Below, one piece after another: positions 9,995 through 19,417 of a stretch of 64,000 nucleotides of DNA (position 1 is its first letter; each line of letters begins with the position of its first letter). Where the stretch lies: assembly GCA_902535745.1 (NCBI GenBank), contig CACAUR010000002.1, forward strand, positions 62,001-126,000, written 5' to 3'. The translations under genes and the position numbers were made by a program. The stretch comes from an uncultured Pelagibacteraceae bacterium. GTDB taxonomy: Bacteria > Pseudomonadota > Alphaproteobacteria > Pelagibacterales > Pelagibacteraceae. A model generated the notes under the pieces. That model ran no database searches. It saw only the letters and a list, made by a program, of their open reading frames with translations, and had not been told where the DNA came from.

Positions 9995-11911
9995 TCAATC
10001 AGATTTTAATATACTATTTCTAATAAGATCATCTTTAATCTCATCTAAAATTGCTGGGTCATCAATAGTAGGAGGCATTTTATATTCAACATTATCTGCT
10101 ATTTTTCTTATTGTACCTCTTAAAATTTTACCCGATCTTGTTTTTGGAAGTCTTTTAATTATTATTGCAACCTTAAATGCAGCAACTGGACCAATTTTAT
10201 CTCGAACCATTTGAATACATTCTTTAGAAATTGTCTCATTATCTTTGTCTACTCCTGTTTTTAATACAATAAGTCCAATAGGCAACTGCCCTTTTAATTT
10301 ATCTGTTATTCCAAGTACTGCACATTCAGCAACTGACTGATGTTCTGATAATACTTCTTCAATTGCGCCAGTGGATAATCTGTGACCAGCTACATTTATT
10401 ATATCGTCAGTCCTGGACATAATCCAAATATAACCATCTTCATCAATATGACCTGCATCGTAGGTTTGATAATAACCCTCGTAATTTGACATATAATTTT
10501 CTTTGTATCTTTTATCTGCATTCCAAAGAGTTGGAAAAGTTCCTGGTGGCAAAGGTAGTTTTACAACAATATCCCCCATTTCATTTGGATTTGCTAAACT
10601 TTGATCAGGTTTAATTATTTTTACATCATAACCTGGAACAGCTTTACATGCAGAACCATATTTTGTTTTCATCATTTCGATACCAGTACAATTTGAGCTT
10701 ATCGCCCAGCTTGTTTCAGTCTGCCACCAATGATCAATTACTGGAACCTTGAGTAAATTTTCAGCCCACTTTATTGTATCAGGATCTGCACGTTCACCGG
10801 CTAAAAATAAAGACTCAAAAGAGCTTAAATCATATTTTGAAAAAAACTTCCCCTCCGGGTCTTCTTTTTTGATTGCTCTAAAAGCAGTAGGTGCAGTAAA
10901 TAAAGATTTGATTTTATAGTCTGAGATCATTTTCCAGAAGGCACCAGCATCAGGAGTCCCAACTGGCTTACCTTCAAATAAAACAGTGGTGCAACCTTTA
11001 AATAAAGGGGCATAAACAATATAGGAGTGGCCTACAATCCAACCAATATCACTTGCGGACCACCAAACATCGCCTTCATCTATGTTGTAAATATTCTTCA
11101 TAGTCCATTTAAGAGCAACTATGTGGCCCCCGATATCTCTTACAATTCCTTTTGGCACACCAGTTGTACCTGATGTATAAAGAATATAGGCGTATTCATT
11201 TGAATTCATCTCTACACAATCTGTATCTTTTGCATTTGAAAAAGCTTCGTCCCAACTAATTTCTTTTGGAGCATTTAATTTTACCTCATGTCCCTTTCGT
11301 TGGAAAAAGATAACTTTTTCAACCAAATGTTTGGCAAGTTTTAGAGCCCCATCAACGAGTGGTCTATACTCTACTGTTCTTCCAGGTTCGAAACCGCAAG
11401 ATGCAGTTATTAAAATTTTGGCTTTACTATCATCTATACGACTTGCAAGTTCATTAGAGGCGAATCCTCCGAACACCACTGAGTGAATGACACCTATTCT
11501 TCCACATGCCAACATAGCAACAACGGCCTCAGGCACCATTGGCATATAAATTATAGCCCTATCACCTTTTTGGAGCCCTTGATTTCTTAAAGCTCCAGCA
11601 AATTTTGAAACTTTCGACCTTAATTGATTATAGGTAAACTTTGCTTTGTTACCTGTAATTGGGCTATCGTAAATTAGTGCAGTTTTTTCCCCTAAACCGT
11701 TATCAATGTGGAAATCTAGAGCATTATAACAAGTGTTTGTAGTTCCGTTCTCGAACCATTTGTAGAATGGGGGATTAGTATTGTTTAAAATCTTAGTTGG
11801 TTTTTTAAACCAGAATATATCTTCTGATACTTCACGCCAGAACTCCTCTGGTTTAGTAATAGATTTATTGTAAATTTGCTCAAATTTTCTGTTCATATCA
11901 TTATGATTCAA
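9995..11911 (-). CDS. prpE: Propionate-CoA ligase / acyl-CoA synthetase (PrpE-like)
   Basis: 638 aa; YTSGTTGVPKGIVRD AMP-binding motif, SVVFGGFASNELASRIDDSKAK, WWQTETSWAI, KTRSGKILRGTIR. Confidence 0.85.
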   Translation of the reverse strand: MNHNDMNRKFEQIYNKSITKPEEFWREVSEDIFWFKKPTKILNNTNPPFYKWFENGTTNTCYNALDFHIDNGLGEKTALIYDSPITGNKAKFTYNQLRSKVSKFAGALRNQGLQKGDRAIIYMPMVPEAVVAMLACGRIGVIHSVVFGGFASNELASRIDDSKAKILITASCGFEPGRTVEYRPLVDGALKLAKHLVEKVIFFQRKGHEVKLNAPKEISWDEAFSNAKDTDCVEMNSNEYAYILYTSGTTGVPKGIVRDIGGHIVALKWTMKNIYNIDEGDVWWSASDIGWIVGHSYIVYAPLFKGCTTVLFEGKPVGTPDAGAFWKMISDYKIKSLFTAPTAFRAIKKEDPEGKFFSKYDLSSFESLFLAGERADPDTIKWAENLLKVPVIDHWWQTETSWAISSNCTGIEMMKTKYGSACKAVPGYDVKIIKPDQSLANPNEMGDIVVKLPLPPGTFPTLWNADKRYKENYMSNYEGYYQTYDAGHIDEDGYIWIMSRTDDIINVAGHRLSTGAIEEVLSEHQSVAECAVLGITDKLKGQLPIGLIVLKTGVDKDNETISKECIQMVRDKIGPVAAFKVAIIIKRLPKTRSGKILRGTIRKIADNVEYKMPPTIDDPAILDEIKDDLIRNSILKSD

Positions 11912-12044
11912 AATCCTGTTATTTAAGGCTTTTTCTACGTGTTAGTTGCATTTAATTTCAAAAAGCGAGTAAAATCAACCTAAATTAGTCCTAAATAACA
12001 CTTCTAATAACCCTAGATATTTGGTATTAGGACCCAACTTTGAT

Positions 12045-12082
12045 CTAAACTGAAGTTTAGGTCGTAGTTTAAATTTAAACTA
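12045..12082. promoter_or_regulatory. Tandem palindromes upstream of proteorhodopsin (CTAAACT-GA-AGTTTAG and TAGTTTAAATTTAAACTA)
   Basis: Direct reading; four TAAACT/AGTTTA half-sites, palindrome centres 21 bp apart. Confidence 0.7.
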
Positions 12083-12112
12083 ACAAAAAACTAACTAAAG
12101 AGGGAGTTTTTT

Positions 12113-12886
12113 ATGAATAAACTAAAACTGTTTGCATTAGCAGCATTAGCTCTAGTTGGCTTTGCTGGTACAGCAAACGCAGCAGACACTGTTCTGTTAG
12201 CTACGGATGACCTTGTAGGAATATCATTTTGGTTAATTTCTATGGGTATGGCTGCAGCAACTGTCTTTTTCTTTATGGAAAGAGGTTCAGTAGCTGGTGG
12301 TTGGAAAACATCTATAACAGTTGCAGGTCTAGTAACAGGTGTTGCATTTGTTCACTACATGTACATGAGAGAAGTATGGATCATTACAGGTGACTCACCA
12401 ACAGTGTACAGATACATTGATTGGTTGATTACAGTGCCGTTACAAATGATTGAGTTTTATCTAATATTAGCAGCGATAAGAAAAGTACCTTCAGGAATTT
12501 TCTGGAGATTACTAATCGGATCAGTAGTAATGCTAGTAGGTGGATACTTAGGAGAAGCAGGTTACATCAACGCTACACTTGGTTTCGTAATCGGTATGGC
12601 TGGATGGATCTACATCTTATATGAAGTATTCTCAGGTGAAGCTGGAAAAGCAGCATCTAAAAGTGGTAACAAAGCACTTGTTACAGCTTTCGGTGCAATG
12701 AGAATGATCGTAACAATCGGTTGGGCAATTTACCCATTAGGTTACATTTTTGGTTACCTAACAGGCGGAATTGATGCAGCTTCATTGAACATCATTTACA
12801 ACTTAGCTGACTTTATTAACAAGATCGCATTCGGTCTAGTTATTTGGGCAGCTGCAGTTTCAAGTACACCAGCGAGAGCTAGATAA
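12113..12886 (+). CDS. Proteorhodopsin (light-driven proton pump, predicted blue-absorbing)
   Basis: 257 aa; signal peptide ending ANAAD, YRYIDWLITVPLQMIEFYLIL (proton acceptor D, donor E, spectral-tuning Q), LADFINKIAFGLVIW retinal Lys. Confidence 0.97.
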   Translation: MNKLKLFALAALALVGFAGTANAADTVLLATDDLVGISFWLISMGMAAATVFFFMERGSVAGGWKTSITVAGLVTGVAFVHYMYMREVWIITGDSPTVYRYIDWLITVPLQMIEFYLILAAIRKVPSGIFWRLLIGSVVMLVGGYLGEAGYINATLGFVIGMAGWIYILYEVFSGEAGKAASKSGNKALVTAFGAMRMIVTIGWAIYPLGYIFGYLTGGIDAASLNIIYNLADFINKIAFGLVIWAAAVSSTPARAR

Positions 12887-12905: not shown

Positions 12906-12944
12906 AAAATAGGGCGAGTTTAACCACTTGCCCTATTTTTTTTT
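12906..12944 (+). terminator. Rho-independent terminator after proteorhodopsin
   Basis: AATAGGGCGAG-tttaacca-CTTGCCCTATT followed by T9. Confidence 0.85.
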
Positions 12945-19268: not shown

Positions 19269-19330
19269 TTTTCTAATTAATAGCCTAATAAATCGATATA
19301 GTCAAATAGGTTGTATTTTGAGTCTGAAAT

Positions 19331-19390
19331 TGAATCAAAAGTGAATCAAAACGTGAACACCGAAACTACATTTTGATACGTTGTGGATAA
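19331..19390. repeat. Iteron-like TGAATCAAAA direct repeats, an inverted TTTTGAT and a perfect DnaA box (TGTGGATAA)
   Basis: TGAATCAAAA at 19331-19340 and 19342-19351; TTTTGAT at 19371-19377; TGTGGATAA (=TTATCCACA reverse) at 19382-19390. Confidence 0.55.
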
Positions 19391-19417
19391 CTTTTACAAG
19401 GGATAGAGTAAAAAGAG

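Follow-up and report, generated by a model that had tools for sequence, protein, structure and literature searches.

The window examined here, 64 kb long with a GC content of 31%, belongs to a Pelagibacter (SAR11) genome whose 27 contigs add up to 0.92 Mb. It carries a coding sequence for the light-driven proton pump proteorhodopsin (257 amino acids, 12113..12886, + strand), identified as an open reading frame and named bacteriorhodopsin in strain HTCC7211; the relatives listed across the genus are 76-100% identical to it. An intrinsic terminator (12906..12939, + strand; a 14-pair stem, then a T-run) lies 3′ of the gene, followed by open reading frames whose translations read as a ferredoxin-like and then a thioredoxin-reductase-like protein. 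The divergent upstream neighbour appears from its translation to encode an acetyl/propionyl-CoA synthetase-type enzyme. The gap to this neighbour measures 201 bp if its TTG at 11911 is taken as the start codon and 216 bp with the in-frame ATG at 11896, in agreement with the length of about 200 bp given in the initial annotation of this DNA. Elsewhere in the window, at 19309-19398 (+ strand), the SAR11_0636 sRNA family (RF01827, 96 bits) is the only Rfam match above the gathering score.

Two palindromes had been pointed out in this gap, CTAAACT-GA-AGTTTAG at 12045-12060 and TAGTTTAAATTTAAACTA at 12065-12082. Both were confirmed letter for letter, as was the distance of 21 bp between their centres (12052.5 and 12073.5). 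The letters of a direct repeat, AAACTAAC (12077-12084 and 12088-12095, 11 bp from start to start), were also found as described; the repeat is made up of the 3′ arm of the second and the 5′ arm of the third of the hairpins presented below (hp2 and hp3), and its spacing is not conserved, since in relatives hp2 lies anywhere between 27 and 35 nt from the start codon. Perfect palindromes of at least 16 bp occur seven times in the window (30 dinucleotide shuffles: mean 3.3, maximum 9). Neighbouring inverted repeats (arms of at least 7, loop of at most 4, within 10 bp) were found in two places with 5 pair counts (shuffles: mean 0.73, maximum 6 pair counts), and folding of the single window sequence as RNA gave z = -2.8. 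The shuffles show single palindromes of such size to be unexceptional in the window, and its sequence, taken without relatives, would be suggestive only; conservation in relatives shows that the element is real.

Proteorhodopsin was detected in 231 of the 297 family genomes and 80 named contigs. Leaders were gathered from about 146 loci, and 106 distinct ones with a recognisable second palindrome were obtained. Alignment A1, prepared without structural guidance, contained 93 distinct leaders from Pelagibacter and its nearest relative; alignment A2 consisted of the gap-free class of 44 sequences. When RNAalifold was applied to the mixed alignment A1, hp2 alone was recovered, since the registers of the first hairpin (hp1) differ between classes, and the gap-free A2 was then used for hp1.

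The hairpin hp1 (12042..12063, + strand) has the form GATCTAAAC-TGAA-GTTTAGGTC, with 9 bp including one U-G pair, and was recognised from covariation and folding. Between species the sequence of its arms drifts almost freely while their complementarity is kept, as in the arm pairs GGCTTAGG/CCTAAGCC, GAATGACC/GGTCATTC and GCAGTAAG/CTTACTGC of relatives. On A2 (n=44), all 8 pairs vary, 7 of the 8 being altered on both sides, and 95.7% of the cells pair; five out of five covariation measures were above 500 of 500 shuffles and above every slid register. When changes were counted by the Fitch method on a tree built from 73 coding sequences, 12 compensatory double Watson-Crick changes were obtained, and single steps between Watson-Crick and G-U pairs numbered 25 versus 2 between Watson-Crick and A-C (sign test, 6e-6); the count placed a few leaders with unusual loop lengths in the wrong register, an error that adds mismatches and not support. 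With the register set by Watson-Crick pairs only, the bias was 77 versus 4. A G-U pair is neutral in RNA of the coding strand, and a DNA palindrome or an RNA of the other strand would give A-C equally often. The excess of G-U over A-C therefore argues for an RNA hairpin on the coding strand. In genus g4, hp1 is longer, contains an internal loop and covaries independently (10 sequences; two of the five measures not above the shuffles). The pair probability of hp1 was 1.0 from 10 to 37 °C. An extension of its stem by AACU:AGUU was discarded, as it was present on folding from 12036 and gone on folding from 12037, the putative transcription start. The comparison of sequences shows hp1 to be an RNA hairpin that is conserved in its pairing and not in its sequence.

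The second hairpin, hp2 (TAGTTTA-AATT-TAAACTA, 12065..12082, + strand), was recognised from its conservation in leaders and from folding, and follows hp1 with 0-2 nt between them. Among the 106 distinct leaders from Pelagibacter, g14 and g4, 105 have the form TAGTTTA-core-TAAACTA; a similar form occurs in g2, where an outer A-U pair is swapped to U-A at one locus (L154; TGTTTA/TAAACA). Its core is 2 or 4 bp long and in every case self-complementary: TA (70), AATT (23), TATA (8), ATAT (3) or TTAA (1). Such near invariance indicates that the sequence of hp2, and not pairing alone, is under selection. Its pair probability in the window was about 0.9 at 10-37 °C. The stem has little stability (-1.6 to -3.1 kcal/mol at 37 °C) and closes a loop of A and U only. 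As an RNA hairpin, hp2 is supported more weakly than hp1.

The third hairpin, hp3 (AAAAAACT-loop-AGTTTTTT, 12085..12112, + strand), was recognised from folding and ends adjoining the start codon. Its arms (AAAAACT...AGTTTTT) surround the GAGGG of the Shine-Dalgarno sequence GAGGGAG (12100..12106, + strand) in a 12 nt loop, and this sequence is near invariant in all A1 leaders. The hairpin formed in folds at 10-37 °C, and GAGGG was for the most part within the loop. It is constant within clades, and its covariation support is a single compensatory change across clades, the outermost pair being A-U in Pelagibacter and G-C in g4 and g2 (GAAAAC...GTTTTC); hp3 is thus modestly supported as an RNA hairpin. 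A Pelagibacter subclade (L022, L049, L057, L061, L062, L065-L067, L069 and L073) has lost hp3 (ATAAATAAAC...GTTTTTAAT) and retained hp2, which in some of these leaders (L022) has grown into a longer palindrome; the loss hints at changed translational control.

An extended -10 element, TGGTATTAG (TGn plus hexamer; 12022..12030, + strand), precedes the hairpins, and an element of its type in relatives, TGnTATTTA, lies 10-13 nt 5′ of hp1 in 92 of 93 leaders. A start position is available from HTCC7211, for which Hou et al. (2016, PMC5069720, Table 2) give 529616-530457 as the coordinates of the bacteriorhodopsin gene and 507 as its number of start reads, which ranks it tenth. In the HTCC7211 genome the proteorhodopsin ATG is at 529690 and the stop codon ends at 530457. 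The first coordinate in the published table was read as the transcription start, because genes without a mapped start are given there with plain coding coordinates and because glcB reproduces the leader of 162 nt stated in the text. On this reading, transcription in this one strain starts 74 nt before the ATG, 8 nt after the extended -10 element and 5 nt before hp1, giving a leader of the form ATCTT-hp1-hp2-hp3, and a start so close to hp1 would place the whole element in the 5′ untranslated region. Transferred to the window, the predicted start is the A at 12037 (+ strand), with the 5′ overhang ACTTT before hp1. When folding begins at the mapped or predicted start, the three hairpins are the dominant structures throughout the range 10-37 °C (probability about 0.9 or more in the window, >0.7 in HTCC7211). 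The suggestion of stacked hairpins in the leader, made from the single sequence, is thus borne out by the covariation and by the strand-specific G-U bias, and the palindrome region would almost certainly be a transcribed, structured 5′ untranslated leader of about 76 nt of the proteorhodopsin mRNA.

A covariance model (R1) was built for the leader element. One strong place was found in the host genome, and 79 of 147 order genomes had a match, one each; the matches compared with proteorhodopsin coordinates (69 of 69) lie directly 5′ of that gene. Infernal was run with strict filters in the large searches, so that weak matches may be lost: with this proviso, no match was obtained in six Pelagibacter genomes without proteorhodopsin (G097, G140, G182, G188, G200 and G238), nothing outside Pelagibacterales among 289 class genomes except in two Pelagibacter, and only chance matches or none among phages, plasmids and viral contigs. 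One further match (G308, E = 0.029) was taken as chance, the genome being without a proteorhodopsin match. Two genomes (G088 and G218) have two proteorhodopsin-like genes and a single leader match each; the second rhodopsin, without the leader, may be a paralog such as FArhodopsin.

Different leaders were seen at other rhodopsin genes of the order. In genus g9 (L164, L165, L167, L171 and L176), a GC-rich hairpin (GCGAA...TTCGC) is followed immediately by a U-run and then by the palindrome TTTTTGTTTAAACAAAAA and a Shine-Dalgarno sequence, the hairpin and U-run being like an intrinsic terminator or attenuator; in genus g12 (L166, L168 and L177), a hairpin is combined with the same palindrome, TTTTTGTTTAAACAAAAA. 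Members of family f2 (L214-L225) have a hairpin, CCTAATTTT-ATAA-AATTAAGGGG, immediately 5′ of the proteorhodopsin start codon; its CC can pair with the GG of the Shine-Dalgarno sequence, possibly making it a sequestering hairpin of separate origin. Locus L152 (genus g10) encodes a proteorhodopsin 76% identical to that of the window behind an unrelated leader without hp2 and hp3; its assembly is 8% contaminated, and transfer or misbinning is possible.

The explanation that accounts best for these results, and that is judged probable, is a structured leader in which hp1 would act as a 5′-terminal stabiliser and hp2 and hp3 would tune ribosome access. The extended -10 promoter would direct transcription to begin about 5 nt before hp1. 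Located at the very 5′ terminus behind an overhang of 3-6 nt, hp1 would block 5′-end-dependent decay, that is, removal of pyrophosphate by RppH and subsequent attack by RNase E, and the abundant message would stay long-lived. Both enzymes appear to be available, as RNase E/G (8e-99) and RppH (model score above its cut-off) are encoded in the host genome. The hairpin hp2 would add a second barrier coaxial with hp1, or serve as a recognition site at the RNA or DNA level, and the weak hp3 would present the Shine-Dalgarno sequence in its loop and probably set the rate of translation initiation. The main point against this explanation is the near invariance of hp2, which does not fit a pure structural stabiliser.

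That near invariance is the basis of the alternative that survives best, possible though well behind an even chance: hp2 may be an RNA recognition element through which a trans-acting RNA-binding protein or small RNA links proteorhodopsin to light, energy or retinal state. In favour of this, the near-invariant sequence is part of a transcribed leader that serves a single gene and disappears together with it; against such an element speak its weak stem and its AU-only loop, and to our knowledge no such protein or RNA has been described from SAR11. The narrower proposal that hp2 is the site of a dedicated trans-acting factor with this one target gene, tying proteorhodopsin synthesis to the light or energy state, is somewhat less probable still; an RNA-binding protein, a small RNA or hp2-hp2 pairing between mRNAs would be candidates for the factor.

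Alternatively, hp2 alone might be a DNA operator at which a dimeric protein bound to TAGTTTA-n-TAAACTA, a short way 3′ of the transcription start, blocks elongation or initiation, with hp1 as a separate RNA hairpin. This would agree with the contrast between the near-invariant hp2 and the drifting hp1, and with the palindromy of all five cores, a property unneeded by an RNA loop; protein-binding candidates are listed among SAR11 intergenic regions by Stav et al. (2019, PMC6429828). The distance between the half-sites, however, differs by 2 bp from clade to clade, a change that a rigid dimer would rarely accommodate, and the element directly adjoins an RNA hairpin, with a fixed spacing of 0-2 nt. 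Furthermore, TAGTTTA-N2-4-TAAACTA has a single occurrence in the host genome, and AGTTTA-N1-8-TAAACT showed no enrichment in the 297 genomes, being rarer than its reversed control in most of them, which argues against a regulon; recurrence at other promoters was thus not observed. An operator at hp2 is accordingly considered unlikely.

Still less credit is given to a translational RNA thermometer or riboswitch on hp3, in which the arms of hp2 and hp3 would exchange partners. The arms are complementary in an alternative register (TAGTTT with AAACTA, AAACT with AGTTT), the Shine-Dalgarno sequence sits in hp3, and Stav et al. (PMC6429828) mention, with no gene named in the main text, that SAR11 strain HIMB5 may have an RNA thermometer. 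The exchange of partners, however, had a probability of 0.0 in the one fold scored (window, 20 °C), hp3 persists from 10 to 37 °C with GAGGG in the loop, and one subclade dispenses with it. Nor did the alignments contain a riboswitch-like core or junction: outside hp2, conservation of unpaired positions is confined to an A-rich stretch and the Shine-Dalgarno region that follows it, and the Pelagibacter leader is without a terminator.

The proposal made for the two palindromes together, in which a dimeric regulator would bind four TAAACT half-sites cooperatively with 21 bp phasing, is contradicted by conservation. Only 3 of 93 leaders have TAAACT or AGTTTA within hp1, and the centres of hp1 and hp2 are 18.0 apart in 62 of 93 leaders and 18.5-21.5 apart in the remainder; the window is one of the few members in which hp1 happens to carry the hexamer of hp2. 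In the comparison of RNA covariation with half-site conservation, covariation was found for hp1, and neither the four half-sites nor their phasing were retained; the half-site pair is not enriched, and the element lies 3′ of the transcription start. Chance palindromes in AT-rich DNA, to which the abundance of similar single palindromes in the window might point, are a negligible explanation, refuted by the covariation and tree counts of hp1, the invariance of hp2 across genera, and the specificity of the covariance model with its one-to-one linkage to proteorhodopsin.

SAR11 are among the most abundant bacterial groups in the ocean. The proteorhodopsin transcript has one of the strongest starts seen in sea-water RNA (rank ten for HTCC7211, PMC5069720), and a genus-wide leader that is present once per genome, and gained or lost with proteorhodopsin, would provide a concrete post-transcriptional handle on its expression. 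In metatranscriptomes the level of proteorhodopsin mRNA is often taken as transcription, though its lifetime may set the level, and the leader could help in the interpretation of such data.

When the Rfam 15 covariance models were run against the element, no family scored above its gathering threshold. Meyer et al. (2009, PMC2704228), Stav et al. (2019, PMC6429828) and Weinberg et al. (2010, PMC2864571) make no mention of rhodopsin in their main texts, although the leader may be listed in the supplements of the first two. The analysis of Meyer et al. was limited to intergenic regions of >26% GC. The leader element is thus unannotated in Rfam 15 and in those main texts, which does not prove it unreported. 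In kind it resembles the RNAs described by Meyer et al. (the rpsB, rpsL and ffh leaders, SAM-V and SAR11_0636), likewise clade-restricted conserved structures found in SAR11 intergenic regions by comparative analysis, and the HIMB5 motifs of Stav et al., which are also of this type. The cyanobacterial and cyanophage leaders PhotoRC-I/II, psaA and psbNH (Weinberg et al., 2010) are comparable in that they, too, are structured and precede genes of marine microbes for light-energy membrane proteins; unlike a member of these families, the element did not reach a gathering score, PhotoRC-II giving 21.5 bits, and on the wrong strand, where 39 is the cut-off.

The closest functional parallel is the stem-loop of E. 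coli ompA (and papA). Structures at the 5′ end such as that of ompA stabilise mRNA, since an unpaired 5′ end is required by RppH as well as by RNase E (PMC3997798). The two are not homologous, and unlike ompA the SAR11 leader adds the invariant palindromic hp2 and a Shine-Dalgarno sequence within a third hairpin; an effect on half-life is predicted for it. Like the ompA stabiliser, hp1 stands a few nucleotides from the 5′ end of a highly expressed message for a membrane protein, its pairing outweighs its sequence, a strong Shine-Dalgarno sequence follows on its 3′ side, and RppH and RNase E are both encoded in the genome.
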